From the NCBI RefSeq assembly GCF_017549005.1, contig NZ_JAFYYT010000038.1, positions 1-64,000 on the forward strand: DNA of 64,000 bases. Direction: 5' to 3'. Shown here in pieces: positions 11,401 to 48,594 of the stretch (its first letter is position 1; every line of letters begins with the position of its first letter). Below the pieces are notes generated by a model. It saw only the letters and a list, made by a program, of their open reading frames with translations, did not search any database and was not told the origin of the DNA. The DNA is from Ruminococcus sp. Its GTDB lineage: Bacteria > Bacillota > Clostridia > Oscillospirales > Ruminococcaceae. A program made the translations under genes and the position numbers.

Positions 11401-11426
11401 TCGCGGAAAGGGGAACGGTGAAATAG

Positions 11427-14400: not shown

Positions 14401-16169
14401 ATGAAGCTAATACCGTAACATTTAAGGTCACATCTGATAATGCAAAGGACAGCTTGCTTCTTCTTCACCACTCTTTCACGAGAGGTACAAACGGTTGGGT
14501 AACCAATACGCTTTCTCCTACATATGAAGTTTTAGATAATGACGGTCATGTAGTTGAGGTTAAAACTAAAGTAACACCAAGCAGTAATTCTGATTATGCC
14601 AAAGGCGACGGATTGATCGTTCAGGGCAGAACAAATGCATGGAACGGCGCAAAATTAATGCTTGACCCTGCAAAGTTCAAAGCTAACAAGACCTATACAT
14701 TCAGTGTATATATACTAAGTCCACAAGATGACGTTTATAAAATGACATTCAATAATGGTCTTGGTGATGATGAACCTCTAAAACTATTAGGCAGCACCGC
14801 ACAGTCATTGCCTATTTCTTCAGAAGACGGATGGACTCAGCTTACGGGTACAATTAAATTGACGGATAAAATTGACCCATACAATATGTATCTATTGATT
14901 GAAACTTTGCCTCAAAATAATGATTATACAGCTTCTGTGCTCAGAGGTGGAACTTATTTCCGTATGGATGAATTTACTGCAATTGAAGGAGAGCGAACTG
15001 TTACTGTCTCACCGCAAACGACAAGCAGTCAGGGCGGTGTTGTTACAATAAGCGGAGCGACTACAGTAAGTACTTCAACAAACAATATACAGGTATATTA
15101 TACTAATTTCAGTGAAGGCATGGATAATTGGTCATTGAATGATTATGATATGGAGCATAATCCAGCCAATGCAACGCGGCTTCAAGATAAAGATAATAAT
15201 TTTTACTATATTAGAGTAGCAGAAAGAAATGCAACAAACGATGGCATAAAAATGAGCGTTCCTTTTCTTCAAAAAGGTCATACTTACAGATTTGAAGCCA
15301 AAGTACAGGGTGATGGTCAAAACAGTTCAGAAGATATTAAACTATCTATAGACTTGCAAGGCGGTAGTAATAATGATGAAAGATTTAGACCGATAGGTGC
15401 TACTAATATTGCTCATGATGGGGAGAATTACTGGGTTCAGAATACCTTTTCAAGTAATTTTACTATTCCTGATTATGCTGATACTTCAAAAATGTATATT
15501 TATTTTGAGACTCCATATGCGGAGCAAGGAGGGCAAAATGGAAACTTTAGAGTAAATGAGGTTCGGATTACAGATATTACAACTATTACAACTACGTCAA
15601 TAACTCCTGTTTCAGGTAATAAAGACGGCTACAAAATAGAAAACGGTCAATACGTATCAAACTTCAGCAATTACGCCGTCAATCTTGAAAACAATTCCGT
15701 AACACAGCCAATAAACATTGCAGATACAGGATACGAACCTGATAACAGCTTTACTGCAAGAGAAGTAATTCTTAAAGCAGACAATTCATGGAAGTATCAT
15801 TGGCAGAATTATGATTCAACTTTATCAAATTATATGCCTACAGAAGATGCCAATACCCTGTATAAATATCATATAGAAGAGATAAGTTTGATTGATTCCG
15901 AAAATCATGAGTATTTAATAAGCGAAAATTCTACGACTCATGATTTAATGAGCAGTGATGGGAATTATCTCGTGACCTACAGCGGAAATGATATTGCGAA
16001 TAACACATCAAACACCCCGATACTTGTGACAAACAAGTACATATGGTACACGCTTCCCACGACGGGAGGACAAGGCACAACGAGTATATACATACTCGGA
16101 AGTATATTGACAGCAATTGGATTATTCAGCGGATCCGCCTTGTACAGGCGTAAAAGGAGGCGAGTGTGA
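11427..16169 (+). CDS. Giant LPTTG-anchored adhesin, likely pilus tip
   Basis: A 1580-aa surface protein. A basic stretch and membrane segment (about 18-45) act as the export signal. Residues about 52-110 contain repeated Cys/His motifs (CGLEEHEHTDECY, CGLEENEEHTHTDECW, CGDDEHLHTMLCY) that could bind metal or form disulfides. A fibro-slime-like domain lies around 410-560 with the core RYSGDDDMWVFVDGVLVLD. Several Cna-B-like segments follow (for example 620-700 and 750-890), then two jellyroll-like, possibly carbohydrate-binding, regions (about 1010-1190 and 1225-1385). The C-terminus has LPTTG, a hydrophobic helix and RRKRRRV. Size, order and neighbours fit a tip adhesin joined to the backbone pilin encoded next. 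Ligand unknown; plant fibre or mucus are guesses. Confidence 0.87.
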   Translation: MKNYFDSFYEIIHKNSVKRRRMVSLLLVLSVFVSSGVLWELRDTVITMVNEPLCGLEEHEHTDECYEYRLVCGLEENEEHTHTDECWEKVLVCGDDEHLHTMLCYDENEEMFEISNDPESEFDDEYYAISNVPSRKVYDQAEEDIFTDLPMLALDNEIRPLDNDTGERRIEDSDNPTPIQTIDNIAEGIKFTLFDYGNSELEGPANNYNLSTKNDSNGNPVSDHYNIIYNGINTDRNYNDDILFFAYGTPPPHGEATGNYLDDNGNQIPTYRPGTHDKNYYSGDYNIDSYQSGNRPIQKIVKNKLGDDGYPVMNNNAAHSLDYLFKPNYLDAADYKTTYTDVNHFLKEVTQNGVRHLVYDSNENYAYFDTDSHNFTIYNGTYHIINDDHHRKNDENLIKDNPVTYPSDNGYEMGIGFFPFNEYDTRKRDPNWDGNRFYQANAETYGSGFNHHFGMTMETKFINTPTNNQPIVFRYSGDDDMWVFVDGVLVLDIGGIHEPAEGLIDFTNGYVWVQDNAPENTESKSKAELIDTYKVFASFDSSILPKGWNEAGNKWIVKPISDFFNAAGETWNSGNGALHDIKMFYLERGGCYSNLAIDMNLPTLKSLTVTKEVDYQDHLVKGLYEDYRYRFQVWEKVRIGDTDQYEWVQPSDFDNHGEFTLKEGERKTFEHLDQNRVFKVVEVGVVPSENASAIPLDPNTFSEVTIKTVKNPNPAAGSTPIINGSVSSTEEALSEVQSYTFNNQIKQETTDISIKKTWDPQLADNDPLNNFTLKYKILRTDTVNGEVKQVALWVPDPNDPTKEIKSRNFSLTPAEWSNGKTITGLLEQYGNHYYTYRIEEINVPAGYKASYSVDDNNNFVIKNTNLSKTDIYVEKKWENCTDAGMKVKVRLTRSMIGYTESTKTSLTVNILDEGGNHIKTYDTNGVYAGGSAELTYTLPEGVEIYHGDIKYPQKQIGSGTPIPISNQNGLDDQLFVKFEEDEGILVVQNLADEANTVTFKVTSDNAKDSLLLLHHSFTRGTNGWVTNTLSPTYEVLDNDGHVVEVKTKVTPSSNSDYAKGDGLIVQGRTNAWNGAKLMLDPAKFKANKTYTFSVYILSPQDDVYKMTFNNGLGDDEPLKLLGSTAQSLPISSEDGWTQLTGTIKLTDKIDPYNMYLLIETLPQNNDYTASVLRGGTYFRMDEFTAIEGERTVTVSPQTTSSQGGVVTISGATTVSTSTNNIQVYYTNFSEGMDNWSLNDYDMEHNPANATRLQDKDNNFYYIRVAERNATNDGIKMSVPFLQKGHTYRFEAKVQGDGQNSSEDIKLSIDLQGGSNNDERFRPIGATNIAHDGENYWVQNTFSSNFTIPDYADTSKMYIYFETPYAEQGGQNGNFRVNEVRITDITTITTTSITPVSGNKDGYKIENGQYVSNFSNYAVNLENNSVTQPINIADTGYEPDNSFTAREVILKADNSWKYHWQNYDSTLSNYMPTEDANTLYKYHIEEISLIDSENHEYLISENSTTHDLMSSDGNYLVTYSGNDIANNTSNTPILVTNKYIWYTLPTTGGQGTTSIYILGSILTAIGLFSGSALYRRKRRRV

Positions 16170-16238
16170 AATGGCTTCCTGATAACTGAAAAGGCGGATA
16201 TAAACGAAAACAAATTATGGAAAACGGAGGTAAATTAT

Positions 16239-18026
16239 ATGAAAACTAATAAAAGAACATTAGCTATACTGACAGCAGGTCTGTTAGCAGTAACACCCAT
16301 GGCGATGACTGGAATGACGGCGTTTGCGGCGACTATAACCGTAAATAAAGTAACAGGCGATAGCGTTACACACGTATACAAGGCATATCCTATTATAACA
16401 GGAACGATATCTGGAGACAAGCTTACAGCGATGGTTTGGGCTACTGGATTGGACAAAAATGTGTTGGCAACTGCATTAACTGCTTTTGATACTGCTCATA
16501 GTACATCAAAGTTTACAAGTTTTAATGCTTCTACCACATCTCCTGAACAATTTGCAACGATGCTTGAAGGTTTGACGGATGCTCAAAAAGAGGATTTGGC
16601 TAAAGTGTTTAATACAGCCAATATATTTACTGGCGCAGGCACAGCATTAGATGGTTCCGGTTCAGCTTATACAGCTACAGGTCTTGATGACGGTTGGTAT
16701 GTTATTAAGGATGAGACAGCATCTTTAACAGGCAGTGCAAGAAGTGCAAATATTCTTGAGGTAAGAGGAGATACGCCTGCGATCACACCTAAATTCTCTC
16801 TTCCAACGCTTGAAAAGAAGATAGTCGATTCAACTGGTGCTAATCCACAAGATGCCAATACAGCTGCTATCGGTGATGTTGTATATTATAAAATCAGTAC
16901 TGAAGTGCCAGATATGACAGGCTATAACAAGTATTTCTTTATTGTAAGTGATACATTATCTTCAGGCTTGACATATAATATAAATTCATTGGTGGTAAAA
17001 TATGGTACAGGAGCAGGTACAGCATTTAATGAAGATACTGATGGACCAATAGAAAATGCCGATACAGGTGATTATTATTTAGATATTTCCGGCGGAACTA
17101 TTAGGGTAGTATTTGAGGATTTTCGTAATAATATGGCTTTAAAGAGTATTGCTGCAGGAACTCCTATAACTATTACATATAACGCCACACTTAATTCACA
17201 GGCAAATACTTCACCTACTGTTGGTAATCCAAATACAGCCAAACTGATATACTCCAATGACCCTAATGTTACATATACTGGAACACCCGGAACGACTCCC
17301 GATGAGCCCGCATCTGGTGAACCTAAGGGAGAAACGCCCGAGGATAAGGTAAATACATATACCACTGCTATCAAGATCAAAAAGGTAGATCAGGACGGTC
17401 AGCCATTAAAAGGGGCGACATTCAAGCTTACAGGTGCTAACCTAAAAAAGGTTGAAACCGTATCGGGAGCAACATTCACAGAAGATAATACCAACGGAAC
17501 ATACTGGAAATTAAGTAATGGCTCTTATACTACAACAGATCCTACAACATTAACTAATGAACAAAAGGCGCTGTATGATAGCTTGACAACTAAATATACG
17601 AAGACTCCAGTTGCAGCATTAGAGCAGACAGCTGCAATAGCCGGAACAGATACTGTTGTAAGTGTAAGCGCAACAGTTGATGATTCAGGTATCCTTACAT
17701 TTACAGGTCTTAACGCAGGGGATTATACTCTTGAGGAAACAGGCGTTCCTACAGGTTACAACAAGGCTGATGAAATTTCATTTACTATCGGTACATCAGC
17801 AATAAATGAATATTCAGTAATATGGACAAATTCAAACTCTACAGCATTTTCTGCTATGGACGCTGATAATATGTTCCCAACAACCATAACTAACAGAAAA
17901 GGTTCTATTCTCCCCACAACAGGTGGCATAGGCACAAAGCTGTTCTACATCATAGGTGGAATGCTCGTAGCTGGTTCCGTAGTTCTTCTAGTTACAAAGA
18001 AGAGAATGGGCACTAAGGAAGACTGA
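16239..18026 (+). CDS. Backbone (major) pilin, LPTTG
   Basis: A 595-aa isopeptide-forming pilin subunit. Signal peptide 1-30 ending AFA. A FimA/SpaA-type N-terminal domain (about 31-185) ends in the GLDDGWYVI and NILEVRGDTPAITPKF pattern; a second domain (about 190-370) and a Cna-B domain (about 375-550) follow. The E-box TLEETGVPTGYN (about 497-508) provides the Glu for the internal Lys-Asn bond. The sorting signal LPTTGG lies near 558, with a hydrophobic helix and a KKRMGTKED tail. RBS AACGGAGGT is strong, as expected for an abundant subunit. Followed by a 13-bp hairpin and the class C sortase that would polymerise it. Confidence 0.92.
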   Translation: MKTNKRTLAILTAGLLAVTPMAMTGMTAFAATITVNKVTGDSVTHVYKAYPIITGTISGDKLTAMVWATGLDKNVLATALTAFDTAHSTSKFTSFNASTTSPEQFATMLEGLTDAQKEDLAKVFNTANIFTGAGTALDGSGSAYTATGLDDGWYVIKDETASLTGSARSANILEVRGDTPAITPKFSLPTLEKKIVDSTGANPQDANTAAIGDVVYYKISTEVPDMTGYNKYFFIVSDTLSSGLTYNINSLVVKYGTGAGTAFNEDTDGPIENADTGDYYLDISGGTIRVVFEDFRNNMALKSIAAGTPITITYNATLNSQANTSPTVGNPNTAKLIYSNDPNVTYTGTPGTTPDEPASGEPKGETPEDKVNTYTTAIKIKKVDQDGQPLKGATFKLTGANLKKVETVSGATFTEDNTNGTYWKLSNGSYTTTDPTTLTNEQKALYDSLTTKYTKTPVAALEQTAAIAGTDTVVSVSATVDDSGILTFTGLNAGDYTLEETGVPTGYNKADEISFTIGTSAINEYSVIWTNSNSTAFSAMDADNMFPTTITNRKGSILPTTGGIGTKLFYIIGGMLVAGSVVLLVTKKRMGTKED

Positions 18027-18063
18027 GCAGTTCAATAAAAACAAAGCAAATATCTGAACTTAT

Positions 18064-18094
18064 AGTGCAGCGGTGGTAGTTCCACCGCTGCACT
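18064..18094 (+). terminator. Perfect hairpin between backbone pilin and sortase
   Basis: AGTGCAGCGGTGG and CCACCGCTGCACT form a perfect 13-bp stem with a 5-base loop. No T run follows, so it probably limits readthrough or protects the pilin mRNA 3' end, giving more pilin than sortase. Confidence 0.65.
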
Positions 18095-18118
18095 GCAATT
18101 TAATTCAAGGAGCTTTTG

Positions 18119-18931
18119 ATGAAGCGTATCATTATAAAGTCACTGCCTTTTGCAGCACTGTTTACAGGAATATTCCTTCTCTTGTATCCGACGGTGAGCG
18201 AGCATATTAACGCTATGCACCAGTCTAAAGCAATACAGGCTTACAACGAGATATCGGACTCGATCAGCAGTGAGGAACACGATAAAATACTGGAAGCGGC
18301 AAACGAGTACAACAGAAGGATAGCTTCCGCAGAGAATCCGATCATAGCTCCCGAAAAGGTAAGAGGGTATTATCAGACTCTTGATATTACTGGAACAGGC
18401 ATAATGGGATATCTGACTATCGAAAAAATAAAGGTGGAGCTTCCGATATATCACAGTGTAGACGATAATGTCCTGCAGATCGCCGTGGGACATCTTCCGG
18501 GTTCGAGTCTGCCTGTAGGCGGAAAAGGTACTCATTCTGTTATGTCGGGACACCGCGGACTTCCCAGTGCAAGGCTTTTTACCGACCTTGACAAAATGGA
18601 ACCGGGGGATATCTTTTACATTACGGTCATGTCAGATATTCTCACATATCAGGTAGATCAGGTAAAAACTGTAAAGCCTTATGAGATAGAGAATCTGACG
18701 GTCGATCCGGACAAGGATTACTGCACGCTTTTTACCTGTACACCTTATGGTATAAATTCTCACAGACTGCTTGTCAGGGGAGAAAGGATAGAGACAAAAG
18801 AAGAATACAAGGTTTATGTTGCAAACGATGTATTTATCGTATCTCCGCTTATTGTGGCTCCGATAATAGCTGCTCCAGTGCTTTTTGCGCTTTTGATACT
18901 GGTTATGATAAAAGGTAAAAAGGATAGCTAA
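18119..18931 (+). CDS. Class C (pilus-polymerising) sortase, second copy
   Basis: A 270-aa enzyme starting at ATG 18119, six bases after AAGGAG; an in-frame TTG directly before it is disfavoured. Membrane segments at about 8-24 and 240-260. His145 (VMSGHRGLP), Cys207 (TLFTCTPYG) and Arg216 (NSHRLLVR) form the active site, and the TGTGIMGYLTIEKI stretch matches the enzyme at 8.6 kb. Last gene of the rightward operon; it should link the LPTTG backbone and tip proteins into a pilus. Confidence 0.93.
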   Translation: MKRIIIKSLPFAALFTGIFLLLYPTVSEHINAMHQSKAIQAYNEISDSISSEEHDKILEAANEYNRRIASAENPIIAPEKVRGYYQTLDITGTGIMGYLTIEKIKVELPIYHSVDDNVLQIAVGHLPGSSLPVGGKGTHSVMSGHRGLPSARLFTDLDKMEPGDIFYITVMSDILTYQVDQVKTVKPYEIENLTVDPDKDYCTLFTCTPYGINSHRLLVRGERIETKEEYKVYVANDVFIVSPLIVAPIIAAPVLFALLILVMIKGKKDS

Positions 18932-19002: not shown

Positions 19003-19029
19003 AAAAGATATTTCTTCACAGAAAGTCAT

Positions 19030-19058
19030 AAGGCTGCATGGAATAACCATGCAGCCTT
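19030..19058 (-). terminator. Terminator after the microprotein gene
   Basis: AAGGCTGCATGG and CCATGCAGCCTT form a perfect 12-bp stem 10 bp past the minus-strand stop codon of the 35-codon gene. T run is weak. Confidence 0.7.
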
Positions 19059-19067
19059 AATTCACTT

Positions 19068-19175
19068 TTAAGCATTTTCCTCTTCATCAACTTTTGCGGG
19101 AGAAGTAGTGATAACATCCTCAGCGTCAAAACGGATTACTTCCATTTCTGCTTCAACATACTTTCTCATATTCAT
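19068..19175 (-). CDS. 35-codon microprotein of a PEME-DVIT family (copy 1)
   Basis: Starts at ATG 19173-19175 behind a very strong AAGGAGGTG (19178-19186); an in-frame ATG at 19167-19169 is the alternative and aligns better with copy 2. The peptide has YVEAEMEVIRFDAEDVITTS in its first two thirds and ends PAKVDEEENA. Copy 2 at 48061-48168 reads YIAPEMEIIKFDSEDVITES at the same place. The shared pattern, the ideal ribosome site, a hairpin after the stop and the identical context (76 bp downstream of, and on the same strand as, a large secreted protein) argue that it is a real gene. No signal peptide or known domain. Function unknown; precursor-peptide, regulatory and export-related roles are all possible. 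Confidence 0.78.
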   Translation of the reverse strand: MNMRKYVEAEMEVIRFDAEDVITTSPAKVDEEENA

Positions 19176-19251
19176 TGCACCTCCTTGATTAAACAGTTTT
19201 AACTGCATAATATTATATGTAATTCAACAAAAAATAATTTGTGAATTATTA

Positions 19252-22200
19252 TCAGTTTAATTCACTAACCTTTGCTGACTTAGCGTCTGAATAGAATGTC
19301 ATAGTCTGACCGTCCTTGGTAACTGTTACGTAAGCCATTGCCCAGATAGTCTGATCGTTAACGGGAGTAATATTAAGAGCCTTTGTATTTGTTGCTACAG
19401 TTGCAGGCTTCTTTGTTCCATCAGCGATGAGAATATCCTTTGCATTGTCAGCAGTGATACTTTCTGTGTTTTCCTTAATGAAAATGATACCCGATTCACT
19501 TGCTGTATATTCCTCAGGAACAACAGGGGTAGAGATAAATCTTGCCTTGCCGTTGTTTAAAACAGGATCTGATAATGTGATGCCAACGCCTGCGTCGCGC
19601 ATTGCAAGTTCGCTTACAACTGCAGATTTCGGCTCTGAATACTTAACGACATCCTGACCGTTTACATCGATGATAACATAAGCGACAGCCCATATTGTAT
19701 GGTCATTTACCGGAGAAATATTAAGTGCCTTGGTATTGGTTGCTACAGTTGCAGGTTTTTTGGTACCGCGTGCAATGAGCTCGTTCTTAGCATTTTCTGA
19801 GCTTATATTTTCTGTATTTTCCTTGATGAAGATTATACCTGATTCCTTAGCGGTACAACCTTCGGGAATAACGGGAGTTGAAATGAATCTTGCCTTGCCT
19901 GCGTTGAATACCGCGTCACTGAGATCAGCTCTTATGTTTTCGTCAGCTGCAACAAGCTCACTTACCTTAGCAGACTTCGGTTCGGTATAGAGTGTTGTCT
20001 GGACACCGTTGACATTAACAGTCACATAAGCCATAGCCCATATTGTCTGGTCGTTTACCGGAGAAATATTAAGAGCCTTGACATTGGTTGCTACAGTTGC
20101 CGCCTTCTTTGTACCGTGTACTATAAGCTCGCTCTTAGCATTTCCTGCGGTGATATTGTCTGTATTTTCTTTGAGGAAGATTATGCCTGATTCCTCAGCA
20201 GTACAACCTTCGGGGATAACAGGAGTAGAAATAAATCTTGCCTTTCCGTTGTAAAGAACAGGATCTGAAATAGTTATAGCATTATCGAGAACGAGGCTTG
20301 TTACTGTCCAGTCTGTGCTTGTATAGCCTGAATAATTGCCTGCACCTACTATTTCAATCTTATAAACGCCGGGGAGCTTTGTCCTTATGTTGTCTGCAAC
20401 GTAGAAATCATACAGATAGTTGCCGTCTTCATCGCGTACATTTTTATCCTCAGTGCCGCAAACAAGCTCCTTGCCTGTAGTCTTATCGAAAACAGTTATT
20501 TCATCGGGAGATGTCCAGTCGTTACTGTCAGTGAGGACAGTCGGGTTATTATCGAGAGTGATCTCTATATCAGGTGAATTGAGTGATTTTGCATTAATGG
20601 TGAAATATGCATAATTGCATTTTTCTTCACCGTTGTTGCACCATAATTCAGCTTTGTATGAACCGACATCCGAAGGAGCTTCGGCTAATTCTGTGTCATT
20701 ATCATCAAAATACTTTATAATGTACTTTTCGTTCTCTTCAAAACCGTCTGTATTGACCTCAAACATATTGGTGATAGGCTTTCCGTCGTAAACCTTGCTG
20801 CTCTCAAGTACATCAATATAGCCTTTTCCGTTGACGATCGACCAGTCCGCAGTCGTAAGACCTGTATAATTGTTCTGGCCATTTATTTGCAGTGTATAAT
20901 TTCCTTTTGAGCGTCTCTTTACATCTCCGCCGAACTCATAATCATTGTTTGACAGACTGCGTTCTGTTGTATTGTCAAATATTTCATTTACAACAGGCGT
21001 ATGGAACTCACCATCATATATGAACTGATTTTTGTCCATGCGTATCTCTACATCGGAGATATCTCTTGGCTTCACCACAAATAATGGGGAATCCTCGGCA
21101 ATGTCAAAGTTGTAATTTGGGTCACTGTTATTCTCATATATGTAGTATGCATATTCGCCTGCATCAGAATCATGCTGACAGCTCGGTGTAAGATAGAACT
21201 GGAAATTATTATTGATATCTGCTGCAAGAACTCCAGTGTTGTCGTTTTCGGTTTCAATGGTATATTCGATTTCCTGAGGATTTTCCTCATAATATATCTT
21301 TGACTGATTTGGTTTTGGAGTTACAGCTACTTTACGCTTAGTGATCGTACAGGAAGTAACTATTTCTATTGGCGCTTCCAGTGTGGAATTTGTGATTTTA
21401 AGTTTTCCTGTTATATCATTGCCTGCATTGACATCAGCATTTTCATCATCAGGTATAAACTCTTTTGTGGTATCTGGAGAATTGAGTATACCGGAAATAA
21501 GTTCTTTTCTTTCATTGTCAATGTTTTCATCAATCGTGAATTTGAAATCATCTGCAGTTGGCAAATTACCGTCAAATGTGTGGAATCTTTCAAAAAAGCC
21601 GGAACCCATTAAAAGTTCACTAAAATTATTCTCATTAATGTTTTCGCCCGTGATATTTATAGCACGACCGATAGAAGAATCCTTGAGCTTTAAGGTGTAT
21701 TTGAAAGCGTATGTTTTTCCGCTGTATTTAACGTTCTTGCCATCAACAATAAGTTCTGCCTTTTCACTGCACGGAACCTCATTGTATTTATCAAAAAACT
21801 TCAAACGGCAATTGGAATAAATAGTACACTCATTTTGCAATACTTCATTCTTTTTGAACCAATATGTAAACATAGGATTATCATTATCAGAAAGAGGTTT
21901 TGTTAATGTGGCTTCACCTCCGTTGGCCACAACAAAATCATCTTCTGCAATACCCTCAACGGTAAGCAATGACGGAAGTGCGTTCTTGCCCTTCTCAAAG
22001 AATTTTATATATGCCGTGTCAAGTCCGTATGAGAATTCTTCGTCCTTGCTATACTCAGCTTTAACACGATATGTACCTTCTGTCAGTTCAACTATTCCGT
22101 CAGAGCCGTCTCCTTGACTTGTGACATACAACTCATAGTCGTCATTTCCATCATCGGGAACATTGTCGATTCCTATGCTTAAAGTATCATAAGTCTGATC

Positions 22201-22518
22201 AGACGAAACAAAGTAATTAATGTACATTGTCTTGCCTTCCGGAACTGTTACATTCCACAGACCTACGGCTGTCTTGCCATTAAAATCATTTCCACGCATA
22301 TTTGTCTTGTATGAGCCATTTATAACTGATGAAGATGAAAATTTGAAACTCGCGTTGGAATCATTAAATTCTACGGTACAGCTGCCTACATCAGGGTCAT
22401 CTGCACCATGTGCAATAAGAATTCCTGCGTTTGCAGGCAGTGAATAAGCCGCTACTGTGAGAACTGAGAGCACACCCGCCGCAGCTCTTTTCAATGAATT
22501 GTTCCTCTTTGTTTCCAT
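19252..22518 (-). CDS. Large secreted Ig/MBG-like repeat protein
   Basis: A 1088-aa extracellular protein. Signal peptide 1-31 (ending ANA). The middle (about 370-750) has MBG/bacterial-Ig-like segments recognised by patterns such as GNYTLQINGQNNYTG and AGNYSGYTSTDW. The C-terminal third is three near-identical repeats of about 107 residues (roughly 757-1088), each with NGKARFISTPV, ESGIIFIKENTE, TKKPATVATN and VNDQTIWAMAYV. No sorting motif, dockerin, or transmembrane anchor is present, so how it is held at the surface is unknown. Start supported by CAGGAGGAAT. A leader with attenuator features precedes it and the microprotein gene follows. Probably a structural or binding surface protein. 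Confidence 0.82.
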   Translation of the reverse strand: METKRNNSLKRAAAGVLSVLTVAAYSLPANAGILIAHGADDPDVGSCTVEFNDSNASFKFSSSSVINGSYKTNMRGNDFNGKTAVGLWNVTVPEGKTMYINYFVSSDQTYDTLSIGIDNVPDDGNDDYELYVTSQGDGSDGIVELTEGTYRVKAEYSKDEEFSYGLDTAYIKFFEKGKNALPSLLTVEGIAEDDFVVANGGEATLTKPLSDNDNPMFTYWFKKNEVLQNECTIYSNCRLKFFDKYNEVPCSEKAELIVDGKNVKYSGKTYAFKYTLKLKDSSIGRAINITGENINENNFSELLMGSGFFERFHTFDGNLPTADDFKFTIDENIDNERKELISGILNSPDTTKEFIPDDENADVNAGNDITGKLKITNSTLEAPIEIVTSCTITKRKVAVTPKPNQSKIYYEENPQEIEYTIETENDNTGVLAADINNNFQFYLTPSCQHDSDAGEYAYYIYENNSDPNYNFDIAEDSPLFVVKPRDISDVEIRMDKNQFIYDGEFHTPVVNEIFDNTTERSLSNNDYEFGGDVKRRSKGNYTLQINGQNNYTGLTTADWSIVNGKGYIDVLESSKVYDGKPITNMFEVNTDGFEENEKYIIKYFDDNDTELAEAPSDVGSYKAELWCNNGEEKCNYAYFTINAKSLNSPDIEITLDNNPTVLTDSNDWTSPDEITVFDKTTGKELVCGTEDKNVRDEDGNYLYDFYVADNIRTKLPGVYKIEIVGAGNYSGYTSTDWTVTSLVLDNAITISDPVLYNGKARFISTPVIPEGCTAEESGIIFLKENTDNITAGNAKSELIVHGTKKAATVATNVKALNISPVNDQTIWAMAYVTVNVNGVQTTLYTEPKSAKVSELVAADENIRADLSDAVFNAGKARFISTPVIPEGCTAKESGIIFIKENTENISSENAKNELIARGTKKPATVATNTKALNISPVNDHTIWAVAYVIIDVNGQDVVKYSEPKSAVVSELAMRDAGVGITLSDPVLNNGKARFISTPVVPEEYTASESGIIFIKENTESITADNAKDILIADGTKKPATVATNTKALNITPVNDQTIWAMAYVTVTKDGQTMTFYSDAKSAKVSELN

Positions 22519-41078: not shown

Positions 41079-43100
41079 TTGAAGAAAGAGATGAAAAAGC
41101 GGTCTGCAAGCACTGTGGCGGCTGCTTTTATCGCTGCAACAGCGATGAGTATTCCCTCTGCGCCGAAAGCTCCCGAATCTGCTTCTGCAGCTGACAGCGT
41201 TCTCAGGTATGAGTTTGAGGACGGCAAGACAAGCGGCGGAAAGATTCACGCAAACGGAGCTTCTGACGTGAAGATGGAAGATTTTCCTGAGGATACCGAC
41301 CTTAGCGGCTTCTCGGGAAAAGGTTTTGCGTACCTCGATCAGAAGGGCACTACTCTCAGCATCGAAGCGGACGTTCCCGAAGAAGGGCTCTATGAGATGA
41401 CGATCTGCTACTGCGAGCCAAGTGATCCGCGCAAAAAGGTCCAGTATCTCAATGTAAACGGAGTTAACCAGGGAGAGCTGACCTGTCCCTACACAAACAA
41501 GTTTGCCGAGACCTCAGGCGGCGTGGTCAATCTTAAAAAAGGCAAAAATACCATTGAGCTCAAGGCTTACTGGGGCTACACCTTTTTCGATTACCTCACA
41601 CTGAAGCCTGCCCCGGAGAAACTCAAAAATCTGTCGCCCACAAGGGAGCTTTCAAATCCAAAGGCTTCCGAAACGACCAGAAGACTCTACAGCTACCTCT
41701 GCGACGTGTACGGAAAGCACGTTATCTCAGGCCAGCAGGAGTATTGCGGCGACCATAACTATAACCTGTGGAACAGTCCCGACGTCTTTATCAAGGACAA
41801 CGAGGCTGAGTTTGAATACATAAAGGAAAAGACAGGCAAGCAGCCTGCTATCAGAGGTATTGACTTCCTCGCCTACAATACCTCGTCTGAATGGCGCGAC
41901 CATGCTCCCGAGCGTGTTATCGAATGGGTGAACAAATATCATGGCATCGCCACTGTTTCATGGCACTGGAACGTGCCCTGCGAGGAGGGAAGTTCCGAGA
42001 TCGCATTCTATGTTGAGTCGGCAAATCCCAAGTTCACAACTTTCAGCATATCAAAGGCTCTCGAGGTGGGCACATGGGAAAACAAGGTCATAATGGCTGA
42101 TATCGAGCTTATCGCAGGCGAGCTCAAAAAGCTCAGAGACGCTGATGTGCCTGTGCTGTGGAGACCTCTCCACGAAGCCGAGGGCGCATGGTTCTGGTGG
42201 GGAGCTGAGGGCGCAGAGCCCTGTAAGAAGCTCTACCGTCTGCTGTATGACCAGCTCACCAATGTGTACGGGCTCGATAACCTCATATGGATATGGACGG
42301 GCTCTGCTTCGCCCGAAGCTGCCGACTGGTATCCCGGCGACGATGTCGTTGATATCATAGGCTGCGACAAGTACAACTGCATGGACGGACTTCCGAATCT
42401 CAGCTCCATATCGTCCACTTTCTACAGTCTCGTGCAGAGCACGGACGGTCAGAAGATGGTAACGATGTCAGAGAACGATTCCATACCGTCCCTTGAGAAC
42501 CTTGTCAACGACAAGGCAGCATGGCTCTACTTCTGCCCGTGGTATATGACTTACCTGACGAGCGAGCAGAACAATCCCGTGGACAACCTTATCGAGATAT
42601 ACAACAGCGATTACTGTATAACTCTCGACGAGCTGCCCGACATAAGGAGCTATCCCATAAACGGAGGCGGAGATGTCACCGTTACGGTAACGACTGCAAA
42701 GCCTGTAACGACGACTTCCACCACTGCCACCACCGCGAAGCCTTCAACTGCGGCTTCGACTTCGTCCGCAGCTACTGCGGCGACTTCCGCAACTACGGCA
42801 AAAACTGCTGTAACAACGACTACCACCGTTACAAAGCCCGCCGGAACGACTTCTGCCGCTTCGGAACACTACAGGAAGGGCGACGCCAATTGCGACGGAA
42901 CTGTTGATATGTCCGACGCAGTACTGATAATGCAGGCACTGGCAAATCCTGACAAATACGGCGTCAATGGCTCTGATTCACACCATATCACAGAACAGGG
43001 CCAGTCAAACGGCGACGTTGATACGAGCAGTAAAGGTCTTACTTCAAATGACGCTCTCGAGATACAGAAGTATCTCCTCGGTCTCTTGAAGTGGGAATAA
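41079..43100 (+). CDS. Cellulosomal GH26 beta-mannanase (CBM35-GH26-dockerin)
   Basis: A 673-aa secreted endo-beta-1,4-mannanase. The start is TTG 41079, six bases after GGAGGGAT; ATG 41091 is too far from it. Signal peptide 1-38. A CBM35-like domain (about 42-182; LRYEFEDG... KGKNTIELKAYWG) may bind mannan or uronic residues. The GH26 barrel (about 195-525) has WRPLHEAEGAWFWW with acid/base Glu366 and VTMSENDSIPS with nucleophile Glu465. A Thr/Ala/Ser linker (about 533-592) leads to a type-I dockerin (about 600-673; GDANCDGTVDMSDAV, TSNDALEIQKYLLG). Together with the next gene it forms a cellulosomal enzyme pair. Confidence 0.93.
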   Translation: MKKEMKKRSASTVAAAFIAATAMSIPSAPKAPESASAADSVLRYEFEDGKTSGGKIHANGASDVKMEDFPEDTDLSGFSGKGFAYLDQKGTTLSIEADVPEEGLYEMTICYCEPSDPRKKVQYLNVNGVNQGELTCPYTNKFAETSGGVVNLKKGKNTIELKAYWGYTFFDYLTLKPAPEKLKNLSPTRELSNPKASETTRRLYSYLCDVYGKHVISGQQEYCGDHNYNLWNSPDVFIKDNEAEFEYIKEKTGKQPAIRGIDFLAYNTSSEWRDHAPERVIEWVNKYHGIATVSWHWNVPCEEGSSEIAFYVESANPKFTTFSISKALEVGTWENKVIMADIELIAGELKKLRDADVPVLWRPLHEAEGAWFWWGAEGAEPCKKLYRLLYDQLTNVYGLDNLIWIWTGSASPEAADWYPGDDVVDIIGCDKYNCMDGLPNLSSISSTFYSLVQSTDGQKMVTMSENDSIPSLENLVNDKAAWLYFCPWYMTYLTSEQNNPVDNLIEIYNSDYCITLDELPDIRSYPINGGGDVTVTVTTAKPVTTTSTTATTAKPSTAASTSSAATAATSATTAKTAVTTTTTVTKPAGTTSAASEHYRKGDANCDGTVDMSDAVLIMQALANPDKYGVNGSDSHHITEQGQSNGDVDTSSKGLTSNDALEIQKYLLGLLKWE

Positions 43101-43147
43101 TAAATCATTTGCATTCATTGAATCACATCATTAAAAGGGAGGAAAAT

Positions 43148-45898
43148 ATGATGGATCACAAAAAGTTTACCGCAGCAGTGATGAGTATCGTTACCGCTGC
43201 AAGTTCACTCAGCTTCTGCGCTACATCTGCGATCGCGGCTGACGACGAGGCTGAGCAGCAGTTCTGTGCGCCTATCAGCGAAGTAGTCAAGGACTCGGGT
43301 CTTGATATCGACTATGCCCGTGCTCTCCAGTATTCGCTCTACTTCTATGACGCAAATATGTGCGGCGATACTGCTGAAAGGGACAGCCGCCTTTCATGGC
43401 GCGGCGACTGCCATACCTATGACGCGCACGTTCCTATGATCCCATGGGACAAGCAGACAAACAAGACAAGCAAGGGCGGTACAAACCTTTCCGAGGCTTT
43501 CATGGAGAAGTACAAGGACGTCCTCGATCCTGACGGCGACGGTACCATCGACGTTGCAGGCGGCTTCCACGACGCAGGCGACCACGTTGAGTTCGGTATG
43601 CCCGAGAACTATTCGGCTGCTACTCTCGGCTGGGATTACTATGAATTCCGCGACGTATTCAAGAAGCTCGGTCAGGATGACCATATGGAGACTATTCTCC
43701 GCCACTTCAACGATTACCTTATGAAGTGTACTTTCCTTGATGACAGCGGCAAGGTAGTTGCTCACTGTTATCAGGTCGGCGACGGTAATATCGACCACGC
43801 TATCTGGAACAGCCCTGAGGTCGATACCATGCCCCGTCCTGCATTCTTCCTCACAGCTGACAAGCCGCAGATCGATTATGCTGTATCAGCTTGTGCAGCT
43901 CTGGCTATCAACTACCTCAACTTCAAGGACACCGATGCGGAGTATGCAGAAAAGTCACTGAAATATGCAAAGGCTCTCTGGGACTTCACGAATGACGCTA
44001 TCGAAAACATAGGCGACTCACTCAAGCTCCTTTCTGATAACGCAGACGGTCCGGGTGCATTCTATGGCTCGACAAAGTGGGAAGACGACTACTGCTGGGC
44101 TACTGCATGGATGTACCTTGCAACAGGCGATGAGAAGGCGTTTGATTATGCTGTAAAGATATTCGATTACTATGCTCCTTCCGGCTGGTGCTACTGCTGG
44201 AACGATATGTGGAGCGGCGCAGGCGTTATGTGGGCTGCTATCAACCAGCAGAACCCCGACCTCGACCTCGTTCAGAAGATCAGAGACGCACAGGGCAAGA
44301 ACCAGTACGTATTCGACGATTTCTGGGACGATGACTGCGTAGGCAAGTGCCTCAAGACATGGAAGCAGCTCGAGACAAAGGGCGGCTTTGCTTACCTCAA
44401 CCAGTGGGGAAGCTGCCGTTACAACACCGCTATGCAGATGATCTGCCTCGTTTACGACAAGTACAAGAACAACGGCGAGCCGAGCGAGTGGAGCGAGTGG
44501 GCTAAGAAGCAGATGAACTACGTTCTCGGTCAGAACGATGTTACTTATAAGGAAAACTCAAAGCAGACCGTTCTCGCAGGCAGAAACGGCACACACGGTC
44601 CGAGAGCATTCATTGTTGGTTATAACGATACAGCTGTAAAGAATCCTCACCACCGTGCAGCTTCGGGACTTCTCATGGCAGAAGACGCTCGTGAGCAGAA
44701 GCACATACTCTGGGGCGCTCTCGCAGGCGGTCCTGACGGAAGCGACGGACACAGCGACAGCACAAACGACTGGGTAGAGAACGAGGTAACTATCGACTAT
44801 AACGCTTGTCTCCCCGGCGCAGCAGCTGGTCTCTATGCACTTTACGGCACACCTGAAATGGCTGTAACTCCCGACTTCCCGCCTGAGGACGAGAAGAGAG
44901 TTTACGGCAGCGCTAACGGCGAAGGCGGCGGAAGCGGCTACTGGGTAGAAGCTGTCGGCGTTGATAAGCCTCTCAGCGACGGTGCAGGCACAACACAGAT
45001 CTCCTTCAAGGTTCTCACAGGCGAAAGCAAGCCTTCAAAGAATATTTCTGTACGCTATTTCTTCAATATCAAGGAGCTCGCTAAGGGCATCGACGGACTC
45101 GGCGAAGTTCGTGAGCTCTACGACCAGGCATACACCGAAGACGGCGAGGGCGCAAACGGCGTTCTCACAGGTCCTTTCAAGTACGACAAGGCAGCTGATA
45201 CATACTACGTTGAGATCACATGGGATGGCTACGTTATTGCCAACTCAGGCAAGAAGTACCAGTTCGACCTCGGTATGTACTACGGCGACGTATGGGATCC
45301 TACAAATGACTGGAGCTATGACGGCCTTAAAATAGGCAAGACAGAGGACTTCTTCGCTGTTGACGATCCGCCGGAGACTCGTACAGACCACATCTGTATC
45401 TACGACAACGGCGTTCTTGTCGGCGGTATCGAGCCTGACGGAACAGTTCCCGAGGAGAAGCCCAAGGAGACTACAACAACAAAGCCCAAGGCTACAACTA
45501 CCACAACAACTACTTCAAAGACAACTACTACTTCAAAGGCAACAACAACTTCCACAACGACTAAGGAGAGCAAGACAACTACAACGACCGCAACAACAAC
45601 TGCTCCCAAGGTTACAACAACTACTGCCAAGTCTGAAAATGAATCGGACAAGACACAGGGTGCAGTAACACTTGCAGGCGACGCAAACTGCGACAAGACA
45701 GTTGATATGGCTGACGCAGTACTTATCATGCAGGCTCTTGCTAACCCGAACAAGTACGGAGTTGGCGGTACAGACAGCCGCGCTCTCACAGAGCAGGGCA
45801 AGCTCAACGCTGATGTTGACGCAAGCTCAAAGGGACTTACCTCCAACGACGCGCTCAAGATACAGCAGTATCTCCTCGGAATCGTTAAGGCGTTATAA
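43148..45898 (+). CDS. Cellulosomal GH9 endoglucanase (GH9-CBM3-dockerin)
   Basis: A 916-aa secreted cellulase. ATG 43148 follows GGGAGG; earlier in-frame codons lie in the GH26 stop region. Signal peptide 1-32. The GH9 catalytic domain (about 45-580) has GGFHDAGDHVEFGMP with the catalytic Asp142/Asp145, the NPHHRAASG substrate motif, and DWVENEVTIDYNA with general acid Glu546. A CBM3-like module (about 595-755; GSGYWVEAVGV, YYGDVWDPTNDWSYDGL) directly abuts it, as in processive GH9-CBM3c enzymes. A Thr/Lys-rich linker (about 775-835) and a dockerin (about 842-916) follow. It begins 47 bp after the GH26 stop and may be cotranscribed. Codon use is biased to C-ending codons, suggesting high expression. 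Confidence 0.95.
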   Translation: MMDHKKFTAAVMSIVTAASSLSFCATSAIAADDEAEQQFCAPISEVVKDSGLDIDYARALQYSLYFYDANMCGDTAERDSRLSWRGDCHTYDAHVPMIPWDKQTNKTSKGGTNLSEAFMEKYKDVLDPDGDGTIDVAGGFHDAGDHVEFGMPENYSAATLGWDYYEFRDVFKKLGQDDHMETILRHFNDYLMKCTFLDDSGKVVAHCYQVGDGNIDHAIWNSPEVDTMPRPAFFLTADKPQIDYAVSACAALAINYLNFKDTDAEYAEKSLKYAKALWDFTNDAIENIGDSLKLLSDNADGPGAFYGSTKWEDDYCWATAWMYLATGDEKAFDYAVKIFDYYAPSGWCYCWNDMWSGAGVMWAAINQQNPDLDLVQKIRDAQGKNQYVFDDFWDDDCVGKCLKTWKQLETKGGFAYLNQWGSCRYNTAMQMICLVYDKYKNNGEPSEWSEWAKKQMNYVLGQNDVTYKENSKQTVLAGRNGTHGPRAFIVGYNDTAVKNPHHRAASGLLMAEDAREQKHILWGALAGGPDGSDGHSDSTNDWVENEVTIDYNACLPGAAAGLYALYGTPEMAVTPDFPPEDEKRVYGSANGEGGGSGYWVEAVGVDKPLSDGAGTTQISFKVLTGESKPSKNISVRYFFNIKELAKGIDGLGEVRELYDQAYTEDGEGANGVLTGPFKYDKAADTYYVEITWDGYVIANSGKKYQFDLGMYYGDVWDPTNDWSYDGLKIGKTEDFFAVDDPPETRTDHICIYDNGVLVGGIEPDGTVPEEKPKETTTTKPKATTTTTTTSKTTTTSKATTTSTTTKESKTTTTTATTTAPKVTTTTAKSENESDKTQGAVTLAGDANCDKTVDMADAVLIMQALANPNKYGVGGTDSRALTEQGKLNADVDASSKGLTSNDALKIQQYLLGIVKAL

Positions 45899-46098: not shown

Positions 46099-48045
46099 AT
46101 GAAAAACAGAACGTTCAAAAAAATGGCAGCCGCTGTAATGGCTGTTGCCCTGATAGGCAGCGGAATATCAGCCCCCGCTGCGGATAAAGCATTATTCGGC
46201 AGTGTTTTGACTGCAAATGCGGACGAACTTGACGAAATCATAAAAGAAAAAATATTTTATGATGAGGAGAGTCATACGCTAACACTAATAGGTCTTTCAA
46301 GTTATGATGACTGGAGTGCGTATAAGAAAAAAGTTAAAAGTGTTCAATTTAGAAATAAAGTTTACCATATTGTAACTCAAAATGTATCTTTCCCTGTAGA
46401 TAGTTGTGGATTGTTTTCTGGATACAATTGGTTATACACTTTAGATGTTAGTTCAGCTGATACAAGCAGAGTTAAAGATATGTCACTGCTTTTTAATGGG
46501 CTTTCATACCTTGATACTCTTGATGTAAGTAATTTTGATACAAGCAACGTTACCAATATGGATAGAATGTTTGCTGAGTGTAGGGGGCTTGAAAATCTTG
46601 ATGTTAGTTCTTTTAACACAAGTAAGGTTACTAATATGAACCAAATGTTCAGTAATTGCCAAAAGCTCAAGTCACTTGATCTTTCTAATTTTGATACACT
46701 AAATGTTACAGATATGTTTGGAATGTTTGAGATGTTCTTTGGCTGTGAAAGTCTTGAAAAACTTGATATTAGTAATTTTGATACAAGCAATGTTACTAAT
46801 ATGTGTGGTATGTTTAACGGACTTTACAATCTTGAATCGCTTGATGTTAGCAAGTTCGATACAAGTAACGTTACAATAATGGCTCGTATGTTTCAGGGAT
46901 GTAGAAAAATTAAAGAATTGGATGTAAGTAATTTCAATACAAGTAATGTTACGGATATGAATTCAATGTTTGCTGGATGCCAAAATCTCAAATCTCTTGA
47001 TTTACGTAATTTCAATACAAGTAATGTTACAAAAATGGATGGAATGTTTTTTGGCGATTCAAGCCTTGAATCACTTGATGTAAGTAGTTTTGATACAAGC
47101 AACGTAGTATGGATGTCACAGCTGTTTAATCGTTGTTCTTCTCTTAAAGCACTTGATTTGAGCAACTTTGATACGACATCTGTATTATATATTGGGGATA
47201 TGCTCAAAGATTGTCCAAAACTTGAACCTGATATCAGTACAATTGTCGGCAAAAGCGTTACTCTTGACGGAACAATCGGTGCTAATTTCTTCATTGAACC
47301 ATGCAAAAATCTTGCAAAGGTTGTTCTCAGCGGTCCTAACGGCGATATAACATATACTGATTTTTCAAAAGTTGCACAGGAGAACGGAACATATAAATTC
47401 ACATATCCAATTAATGCGACTCAGGCAAATGAAAAGGTCACATTAAAGACATATGACGAAGATGGGCGTCAGCTTATTGTGTGCAAAGCAAGGTATGAGC
47501 TTAGCAATCATTCACAGGGCGAAGGCAGCGTACAGGGCTATATTGATGATATCAAAAAGGAAAAGGTATATAAAGAAGACCCTGTAACCACTATTATGGT
47601 AAACACCCTCGAAAACTACTGCAAGGCTGCCGAAAACTACTTCAAGGGCACAAAAAACACAGTAAATAAGGTCTCGGAGCAGTTTGCCGTTATCCTTGAC
47701 AACTATGCACCGACTATCGCAAGCGGCACCGATATCAAGCTTTCTCTTATCCTTGACTCTGAGACTGCTGTAAGGATCTATACAAACGGCTCGGGCGTAA
47801 AGATTGACGGACAGGCAGTTACACCATACATGAGCAAGTACGGAAAGTGCTATGAAATTGCAAATATCCCCGCACATCAGCTTATAAATACACACACTCT
47901 GACCGTTGACGGCATGGAGTATACATTCAGCCCCATGTCCTATGTTTACCGCGTTATGAACAGCGAAAGCACTGATAAGCTCAGGGAAGCTGCATGGGCA
48001 GTATTCCTGTACGCAACTGCTGCTGACGAATACAACAAAAAGTAA
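46099..48045 (+). CDS. Secreted DUF285 leucine-rich-repeat protein
   Basis: A 648-aa extracellular protein. Signal peptide about 1-38. Residues about 75-385 are roughly a dozen BspA-like DUF285 repeats of 23-25 residues with the pattern LDVSNFDTSNVTNMDRMF and L/C variations. After residue 395 a different domain follows (about 395-648: SVTLDGTIGANFFIEP, TVDGMEYTFSPMSYVYRV), of the kind seen at the end of other Ruminococcus secreted proteins; function unknown. The LRR part uses A/T-rich codons, the C-terminal part C/G-rich ones, suggesting the repeats were acquired separately. No anchor or dockerin. A microprotein gene follows 15 bp downstream. Confidence 0.87.
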   Translation: MKNRTFKKMAAAVMAVALIGSGISAPAADKALFGSVLTANADELDEIIKEKIFYDEESHTLTLIGLSSYDDWSAYKKKVKSVQFRNKVYHIVTQNVSFPVDSCGLFSGYNWLYTLDVSSADTSRVKDMSLLFNGLSYLDTLDVSNFDTSNVTNMDRMFAECRGLENLDVSSFNTSKVTNMNQMFSNCQKLKSLDLSNFDTLNVTDMFGMFEMFFGCESLEKLDISNFDTSNVTNMCGMFNGLYNLESLDVSKFDTSNVTIMARMFQGCRKIKELDVSNFNTSNVTDMNSMFAGCQNLKSLDLRNFNTSNVTKMDGMFFGDSSLESLDVSSFDTSNVVWMSQLFNRCSSLKALDLSNFDTTSVLYIGDMLKDCPKLEPDISTIVGKSVTLDGTIGANFFIEPCKNLAKVVLSGPNGDITYTDFSKVAQENGTYKFTYPINATQANEKVTLKTYDEDGRQLIVCKARYELSNHSQGEGSVQGYIDDIKKEKVYKEDPVTTIMVNTLENYCKAAENYFKGTKNTVNKVSEQFAVILDNYAPTIASGTDIKLSLILDSETAVRIYTNGSGVKIDGQAVTPYMSKYGKCYEIANIPAHQLINTHTLTVDGMEYTFSPMSYVYRVMNSESTDKLREAAWAVFLYATAADEYNKK

Positions 48046-48060
48046 AAGTGAGGTAATAAC

Positions 48061-48168
48061 ATGAAAAAAGAGTATATTGCTCCCGAAATGGAGATAATCA
48101 AGTTCGATTCGGAGGACGTTATCACAGAGAGCCTCTTATCCAGCGATATCGAGCTTCAGCCCAAGTAA
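48061..48168 (+). CDS. 35-codon microprotein of the PEME-DVIT family (copy 2)
   Basis: MKKEYIAPEMEIIKFDSEDV, then ITESLLSSDIELQPK. The ATG is 15 bp after the stop of the DUF285 protein and follows GTGAGGT; a TTCG-loop hairpin closes the unit. It shares with the copy at 19068-19175 the order Lys-Tyr, Glu-Met-Glu, hydrophobic pair, basic-Phe-Asp, and EDVIT.S, while the tails differ. Length is the same (35 codons). It has no membrane or signal segment. No modifying enzyme or transporter for a precursor peptide lies next to it. Function unknown. Confidence 0.82.
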   Translation: MKKEYIAPEMEIIKFDSEDVITESLLSSDIELQPK

Positions 48169-48174
48169 CGATGT

Positions 48175-48198
48175 AATGGCAGCCTTCGGGCTGCCATT
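48175..48198 (+). terminator. TTCG-loop terminator after the microprotein
   Basis: AATGGCAGCC, loop TTCG, GGCTGCCATT: perfect 10-bp stem 6 bp past the stop; T run poor. Confidence 0.75.
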
Positions 48199-48231: not shown

Positions 48232-48594
48232 ATGAAAAGAATCATACCTGTTATTTTATTTGCAGCTCTTGCGCTTTGCGGCTGCAAAGACGAGAACGGA
48301 AGTACCACGGAGAGCGGTACTGCTCCGGCTGCGACTGCTGCTGCAACGACGGTGAGCACAACTGCTGCTTCTTCGGCGACAACTGCGGTTTCAACAGTTA
48401 CCGCGACGACTACTTCGACTGTAAGTACTGAAACCACAGCTGCTATCAGTCCCGAGGAAAGCAAGCTCATAGAAGAAGGCATAATCCCACCTGAGGCTGA
48501 GGAGATCCATGCAGCGGAGGAGATAACGCAGGCAACTCTGCCTGTTTCCGATGATGACAAGCCCATAGAGCTGCCGATGATACCCATAAGATAA
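48232..48594 (+). CDS. Thr-rich lipoprotein, unknown function
   Basis: A 120-aa lipoprotein. Signal peptide with lipobox LALCGC (Cys19). Residues 25-75 are almost only Thr, Ala and Ser, probably a stretched, perhaps glycosylated, wall-spanning stalk; residues about 78-120 are acidic (PPEAEEIHAAEEITQ) with no known domain. Start behind GGAG. It stands between the microprotein and spoIIR without a terminator before spoIIR. Confidence 0.72.
   Translation: MKRIIPVILFAALALCGCKDENGSTTESGTAPAATAAATTVSTTAASSATTAVSTVTATTTSTVSTETTAAISPEESKLIEEGIIPPEAEEIHAAEEITQATLPVSDDDKPIELPMIPIR

Follow-up and report, generated by a model that had tools for sequence, protein, structure and literature searches.

Among the described peptide systems, the linear polyphosphorylated peptides (LPPs) come closest to the genes reported here. 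In the main text of Popov et al. 2026 (PMC13381572), the LPP set consists of an SpI-like protein (LppS), an RRE protein (LppB), a kinase (LppK), an exporter (LppD) and an NTP transferase (LppN), and the PF14907 nucleotidyltransferase is a core gene of LPP clusters. The precursors described there are 35-200 aa long, with a conserved leader at the N-terminus that has YxxP and ends in ...T...S, and with C-termini that vary greatly; the leader reads YxxPxVLxHQxIxFETxxS, cleavage takes place after T-1 and several phosphates are put on Ser 3 (PMC13381572). The role of LPPs is left unstated in the Discussion of that paper. Besides, excerpts of PMC7533575 describe rumen-bacterial and paeninodin-like lasso peptides, which have MTYNKPS...T-type leaders with Y-x-x-P and whose accessory genes encode HPr kinase, PqqD and nucleotidyltransferase.

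In this work, we analysed a 64,000-nucleotide stretch of Ruminococcus sp. DNA (the window), together with the rest of its genome and its relatives. Two small genes in the window quite probably encode precursors of an LPP-like RiPP matured in trans, the core of which may act with the secreted protein of the gene directly upstream.

Probable precursor genes in the Ruminococcus genome

The first-pass annotation of this DNA had proposed two related 35-codon genes, and both were recovered with exact coordinates, one of them on the minus strand. Copy 2 (48061-48168, + strand) encodes the 35-aa peptide MKKEYIAPEMEIIKFDSEDVITESLLSSDIELQPK, in which a leader-like part, MKKEYIAPEMEIIKFDSEDVIT-E-S, is followed by the tail LLSSDIELQPK. 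Copy 1 (19068-19175, - strand) also encodes 35 aa, MNMRKYVEAEMEVIRFDAEDVITTSPAKVDEEENA, laid out as MNMRKYVEAEMEVIRFDAEDVIT-T-S and then the tail PAKVDEEENA. When the two were aligned over 22 residues, 13 were identical and 19 similar (E 6e-10 as a single comparison). Searching the 3.33-Mb genome with copy 2 alone returned, besides copy 1 (E 1.9e-4), a further member on contig C20, copy 3 (E 0.002), which reads MKKYVTAEIEITEFDTEDVITNSETLTVEVGG. With a profile of all three copies, the same genome gave exactly three matches and none further at E 10; the profile E-value of copy 3 (1.5e-18) is partly circular, because the profile was built from copy 3 too. Copies 1 and 3 carry Ala in place of the Pro of YxxP.

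The good ribosome sites claimed earlier are legible in the sequence, GAGGT before copy 2 (48050-48054, +) and AAGGAGGTG before copy 1 (19178-19186, -). The hairpins said to follow the stops are present as well, one of 9 bp with a TTCG loop 3' of copy 2 (48176-48197, +; found by eye) and one of 13 bp 3' of copy 1 (19029-19059), but they are no more than candidate terminators of the small genes: the former has no clear T-run and is absent from the terminator-scan list, and the latter was scored there for the + strand only.

A family of short coding genes with a conserved leader

The three-copy profile found matches in 61 of 149 relatives, counting the genome of the window among them (up to 14 per genome), and, in a class-wide draw, in 32 of 293 genomes (up to 23 per genome). 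In a scan of GTDB contigs, 96 loci were confirmed and 80 of these kept; the titles were mostly those of Ruminococcus or related rumen and gut bacteria, and the Ruminococcus flavefaciens strains YAD2003, Y1 and MA2007 were among them. Homologues are abundant, contrary to the possibility raised with the first-pass annotation that none would exist beyond chance. No family of Pfam, NCBIfam or PHROGs matched the small peptides.

From the fetched loci we gathered 104 distinct family sequences, including the three of this genome and leaving out own-genome duplicate loci, exact duplicates and two L113 sequences without the exact motif. The family core is Y-x-x-P/A-E-x-E-I/V-x-x-F-x-x-E-D-V-I-T-x-S, followed by a short, variable and mostly acidic tail. 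Y is found in 101 of 102 leaders and P in 86 of 102 (A in 13), while F and E-D are found in all 104, followed by V/I and I; at the end of the leader stand T (101 of 104) and S (102 of 104), with a free residue between them. These counts are partly circular, since the GTDB scan required FD[SAT]EDVIT or Y...E words and the strictness of the motif is therefore partly built in; the class-wide search shows looser leaders, such as FEVEDIIALS and FISEDVITTS. The tails have 4-27 residues (median 13) and are net negative in 100 of 104 sequences.

Among 102 leaders, the entropy at the three codon positions is 0.64/0.46/1.46, so that the third position varies most, and all six Ser codons are in use at the conserved Ser. 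Between copy 2 and its closest relative (L038, tail SLLSSDVELQPQ), pS is 0.68 and pN 0.16; for copy 3 against two relatives, pS/pN is 0.41/0.15 and 0.49/0.24. It had been considered that the frame might turn out unconserved at synonymous sites, and the reverse was found, with more synonymous than non-synonymous variation. An SD-like word precedes 95 of 100 family starts, compared with 12.7% of random positions. The small genes are coding.

As to mobile elements, a phage origin was rejected, as none of 262 pattern matches in viral contigs was confirmed as a relative and PHROGs had no match; viral contigs searched with the secreted protein P0005 also gave nothing. A plasmid origin was rejected likewise, as the search of plasmids with copy 2 gave no relative. 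Family members were also seen at four loci (L053, L075, L101 and L107) on contigs binned as Synergistaceae/Fretibacterium, which may reflect transfer or mis-binning. Another observation is a degenerate relative, YETPSLVCIAMEASVVATS, at L133:59-181 3' of a class-0 domain (see below; E 2.5), and there may be further members that the profile misses.

Secreted proteins encoded upstream of the small genes

Each small gene of the window had been described as lying behind a large secreted repeat protein, with gaps of 15 nt (copy 2) and 76 nt (copy 1) from the upstream stop, and these distances are correct. The protein upstream of copy 2 (46099-48045, +; 648 aa) has a hydrophobic signal-like start and DUF285/BspA-type leucine-rich repeats, and that upstream of copy 1 (19252-22518, -; 1088 aa; no Pfam match) has three imperfect C-terminal repeats, so the wording "repeat protein" fits both. 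The former also carries a C-terminal domain (47272-48042, +) that we call class 0.

The pairing extends well beyond these two copies. A same-strand ORF ends close 5' of the peptide in 97 of 105 rows of the compiled loci, and the likely start typically lies 20 nt behind the upstream stop (median; quartiles 14 and 27 nt; 79 of 95 within -4 to 40 nt), some junctions being ATGA overlaps. Signal-peptide-like starts were seen in 39 of 48 complete upstream ORFs of at least 200 aa, compared with 62 of 184 for the remaining ORFs of these loci, by a home-made test and with upstream genes taken from a crude ORF rule. The contents of the upstream proteins vary, including BspA-type leucine-rich repeats, transglutaminase-like, Flg_new and other repeats. 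The class-0 C-terminal domain is common to 54 rows, and sequence searches gave no convincing Pfam or PDB match for it. Among the first 115 class-0 copies and 150 peptides listed from the 149 relatives, 74 copies had a listed peptide at most 300 nt downstream in the same orientation (median 22 nt) and another four were followed by a divergent family member, which makes 78 of the 115 copies listed, compared with a chance expectation of about 0.0003 per copy. This count includes the inspection of 40 of the 41 copies without a listed peptide (G006:C145 was left out). In the genome of the window, both class-0 copies are followed by a small precursor gene. Random genomic context, which would have spoken against the pairing, was thus not what other genomes showed.

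Two further loci were observed in the window. Directly 5' of copy 2's secreted protein, GH26-CBM35 and GH9 enzymes with dockerin domains (41079-45898, +) are encoded, and this region is, as judged from its predicted domains, a cellulosomal neighbourhood, with one dockerin match just under and one under the Pfam cut-off. Besides, a pilus-type locus (10828-18931, +) converges on copy 1; it contains an S26 signal peptidase (10828-11400, +), a 1580-aa protein without Pfam match (11427-16169, +), a pilin with GramPos_pilinBB and SpaA domains (16239-18026, +) and a class C sortase (18116-18931, +).

Probable maturation machinery encoded in trans

According to the first-pass annotation, no maturase or exporter is adjacent to the small genes. 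This is right within the window, but the same genome has a RiPP-type operon away from it, on contig C44 (locus L119). The operon encodes an HprK-like kinase (L119:1569-2303; weak matches to Hpr_kinase_C, 16.9 bits against a cut-off of 33.3, and to TIGR04249), a PqqD/RRE protein (L119:2309-2569; PF05402, E 1.7e-13, 51.1 bits against 23.4), an archaeal-type signal-peptidase-like ORF, P0006 (L119:2562-2996; TIGR02228, E 4.3e-9, 36.4 bits, below the cut-off of 51.85), and an MsbA-like ABC exporter (L119:2993-4708; PF00664 and PF00005). The family scores of the kinase and the signal peptidase lie under the curated cut-offs. The kinase, 74% identical to that of L082, belongs to 8 aligned sequences that keep the P-loop GTGKST and NDDKP, except for GMGKST in one, and the Ser (GVSMLP), His (LHR) and Asp (GDN) positions of P0006 are common to 4 aligned sequences. 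Just 5' of the operon lies an ORF (L119:581-1411, +) that we take to be VanW-like.

In relatives, parts of this machinery stand beside a small gene. In L071 and L082, the small gene is followed by a radical SAM gene, an HprK-like kinase, PqqD/RRE and, further on, an ABC exporter (in L071 MsbA TIGR02203, E 7.6e-65, under the cut-off). In L066, L103 and L115, it adjoins the kinase without a radical SAM gene, with PqqD in L066 and L103. Signal-peptidase-like ORFs were seen in L071, L103 and L078 as well as in the genome of the window. A PF14907 nucleotidyltransferase is encoded in the relative L066 (E 1.8e-44), and none was found in the own genome at E 0.001.

Peptide and kinase tend to occur in the same genomes. 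The kinase was found in 59 and the peptide in 61 of the 149 relatives (both 52, peptide only 9, kinase only 7, neither 81; Fisher one-sided 6e-23), and for the 293 genomes of the class the numbers were both 30, peptide only 2, kinase only 48 and neither 213 (Fisher 1.4e-17). Since the Fisher test ignores shared ancestry, these p-values are too small; the pattern still holds across families, and the kinase is present in every one of the 13 genomes from outside the genus that carry the peptide. At the class level, the kinase is found without the peptide in 48 of 78 genomes, with a profile that also catches partial and probably other HprK-like proteins. Nine of the 61 peptide-bearing relatives have no kinase match at E 1e-5, including G031 and G062, which are 98-99% complete; in these two, decay of the machinery, divergent machinery or an assembly gap may be the reason.

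Among the matches listed for kinase-bearing genomes, 26 of 137 peptides lie within 15 kb of the kinase and 111 elsewhere, and of the 40 genomes checked, 20 have at least one peptide within this distance. Often, then, one precursor is linked to the machinery, which would act on the others from elsewhere in the genome. In the genome of the window, none of the three precursors is near the machinery, and all three would have to be served in this way.

A radical-SAM sub-variant

Cys is present in all 5 distinct tails that adjoin a radical-SAM maturase, compared with 1 of 99 other tails (p 6.5e-8). A sixth distinct Cys tail belongs to identical peptides of G047 and G045, and the maturase of G045 is fragmentary. 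The maturase of L071 matched TIGR04463 at E 2.1e-35, far under the cut-off, and such a maturase was found in 8 of the 149 relatives at E 1e-40; two of these with weaker matches (G030 and G130) had no family member in the stretch fetched. The genome of the window gave no radical-SAM maturase of this type at E 1e-5, and its three tails are without Cys. A radical-SAM RiPP was rejected as the general mechanism, because neither the own genome nor most relatives have the maturase, and it was kept as a sub-variant.

Peptide tails and small lipoproteins

The upstream proteins of class 1 share an uncharacterised C-terminus ending in ...FVVTVSSSSDISADLTC.LDFE. The peptide tails behind them are glycine-rich and alike. 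Among 6 representatives under 50% identity, the mean pair score is 32.1, and permuting the labels gives 13.8 (p 5e-4); the glycine fraction differs between the upstream classes (p 4e-4). The same test of tail likeness is borderline for class 2 (p 0.05) and gives nothing for class 0 (p 0.52).

Downstream of copy 2 we found a small lipoprotein-like ORF (48232-48594, +), which starts with MKRIIPVILFAALALCGC, continues with a Thr/Ala-rich linker and ends in DDDKPIELPMIPIR. Both this gene and copy 3 had been missed by the first-pass annotation. Its end resembles the tails of small precursors in other genomes; for example, DDDKPIELPMIPIR is a look-alike of the L028 peptide tail, SSDEPIELPLVPLR. Another such pair is in L016, where the lipoprotein has TDDGLDWSPLVPVN and the next peptide PDDGLDWSPLTPVN. 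Among 98 rows with enough downstream sequence, a lipoprotein-like ORF lies 3' of the small gene in 22 (23 by a home-made lipobox pattern, of which L103 is false). It turned out that the last 14 lipoprotein residues match the peptide tails of other loci with a mean best score of 43.9, compared with 24.8 +/- 0.7 for shuffled ones, based on 18 distinct unselected tails; a 23-tail set, five of them chosen by eye, gave the same result. The ends of 73 secreted proteins are unlike the peptide tails (20.0 vs 19.9), and a general rule by which each tail repeats the end of its secreted protein was rejected on this ground. A tail copies the C-terminus of the preceding gene product only where that gene encodes a small lipoprotein (e.g. 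L016, L028, L058 and L062). Besides, five class-0 genes without a small gene (L120, L125, L141, L154 and L156) are followed by a small lipoprotein instead, as seen by eye, and these lipoproteins end in (I/V/L)-(E/D)-L-P-x-(I/V)-P.

Proposed mechanism and alternative explanations

Three functions had been offered for the small genes: a precursor-peptide leader, a chaperone-like or regulatory peptide for the export of the upstream protein, or a signalling peptide. The first is now well supported by the co-occurrence and linkage with the kinase, and the other two stand as rivals. We propose that the leader, with its Y-x-x-P/A and invariant F-x-x-E-D-V-I-T, would be bound by the discrete PqqD/RRE protein of contig C44, as we infer from the LPP paper and from the co-occurrence. 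The conserved Ser of T-x-S would be phosphorylated by the HprK-like kinase, and the leader would be cut around that T by the archaeal-type signal peptidase, either after T, with Ser at +2, or after I, with Ser at +3 as in LPP. The MsbA-like exporter would release a core of some 10-30 residues. These four steps are likely as read from the genes. Outside the cell, the core would work with the secreted protein encoded just 5', and the small lipoprotein would be a membrane-held version of the same ligand, with a C-terminus resembling the cores. This last step is the weakest link: a function at the cell surface, with the core as ligand of the secreted protein or as competitor for it, is a tentative suggestion, drawn from gene order, tail classes and lipoprotein tails, and since the C-termini of the secreted proteins are unlike the tails, it rests on the lipoproteins and the gene order. 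In its widest form, which is speculative, the system might be a genome-wide surface code. One LPP-like machinery would modify and export many phosphopeptides, each encoded 3' of a secreted protein that it serves via the C-terminal domain; the lipoprotein tail would be its membrane-held twin, and free core and lipoprotein tail, as alternative ligands, would dock the secreted protein or release it.

It is rather unlikely that the same machinery, with the first four steps in common, exports quorum or phase signalling peptides and that the secreted proteins are mere operon mates. Short, acidic and variable tails and many paralogues (up to 23 matches per genome) would suit such signals, but no recurrent receptor or regulator gene was found beside the small genes in the loci viewed (by crude ORF calls), and neither the lipoprotein tails nor the link between tail and upstream class would be explained.

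Tight and usually same-strand coupling (median 20 nt; 79 of 95 within -4 to 40 nt), diverse upstream proteins and the 111 of 137 peptides among the matches listed that lie away from the kinase could also be read as signs of a cytoplasmic chaperone, secretion pilot or translational partner for the upstream protein, with the RiPP-type operon linked only by shared ancestry or lifestyle. We regard this as unlikely, as it leaves unexplained the co-occurrence of peptide and kinase in different families (all 13 peptide-bearing genomes outside the genus), the Y-x-x-P-type leader with a free residue between invariant T and S, and the Cys in tails beside the radical-SAM gene; the upstream proteins also include unrelated classes.

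An antibacterial RiPP, with the lipoprotein as immunity protein, is quite improbable. Lipoproteins are frequent neighbours of bacteriocin genes, but a lipoprotein-like ORF was found by pattern in only 23 of 98 rows (one of them false), immunity proteins seldom carry the peptide's own sequence, and up to 23 matches per genome would be odd for bacteriocins. In favour of this reading, the patchy gain and loss of LPP genes is likened to conflict systems in the main text of PMC13381572. Finally, chance ORFs or a non-coding conserved element, which a length of only 35 codons might suggest, can practically be dismissed in view of the third-position entropy, the six Ser codons, pS above pN in three pairs and the SD-like words before 95 of 100 starts.

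If the proposed precursor system is right, an LPP-like system would be tied to partners, namely secreted leucine-rich-repeat, transglutaminase-like and Ig-like-repeat proteins of fibre-degrading gut bacteria and the small look-alike-tailed lipoproteins, and this pairing would be a first, testable clue to LPP function, for which exact gene pairs are now given. The likely role of LPPs would move from warfare to organising cell-surface proteins, and RiPP precursors could be spread beside their partners, hidden from cluster-based mining. Should the surface code hold, the peptide cores would be addresses and not antibiotics, which would explain the purpose of LPPs.

Comparison with known systems

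Compared with the LPPs as described in the main text of PMC13381572, the present system is alike in several components. The C44 operon has an SpI/SipW-like peptidase, a discrete RRE, an HprK-like kinase and an MsbA-like exporter; the PF14907 nucleotidyltransferase is found in relatives such as L066, while the own genome is without one; and the precursor has a YxxP-type leader, a T...S end and a variable C-terminus. On the other hand, the leader reads F-x-x-E-D-V-I-T-x-S instead of I-x-F-E-T-x-x-S, with only Y-x-x-P and the final T...S in common. The precursors here are dispersed and their machinery acts in trans, whereas an LPP precursor gene lies inside its cluster; pairing with secreted proteins and lipoproteins and a radical-SAM/cysteine sub-variant are further differences, and the hosts are Clostridia-type gut bacteria instead of Bacilli. 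The terms Ruminococcus, Clostridia, secreted protein, lipoprotein and radical SAM are absent from the main text of that paper. Since the own genome is without LppN, the leader differs and the precursors are outside the cluster, the system is, by its sequence features, LPP-like and not an LPP member.

Lasso peptides, as presented in excerpts of PMC7533575, share the Y-x-x-P leader and have HPr kinase and PqqD as accessory genes. They differ in that the tails of our family have no constant ring-forming pattern and that an SpI-type peptidase is found instead of PF13471; they were rejected for this genome, which has no leader peptidase PF13471 (B2). No macrolactam cyclase was noticed on L119, and housekeeping asparagine synthetases could be mistaken for one elsewhere. 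Radical-SAM/SPASM RiPPs (sactipeptides and ranthipeptides; TIGR04463 and kin) resemble the sub-variant with its maturase and tail Cys, and differ in that their maturase has no counterpart in the own genome or in most relatives. In prochlorosin-type systems, many precursors are served by one modifying enzyme. The present system similarly has one machinery and many scattered precursors, with other enzymes, and we know of no pairing with secreted proteins in prochlorosin-type systems. Among the open-licence papers searched, none described precursors dispersed in this way next to secreted proteins, and precursors that are dispersed and usually lie about 20 nt 3' of a secreted-protein gene are apparently a new arrangement.
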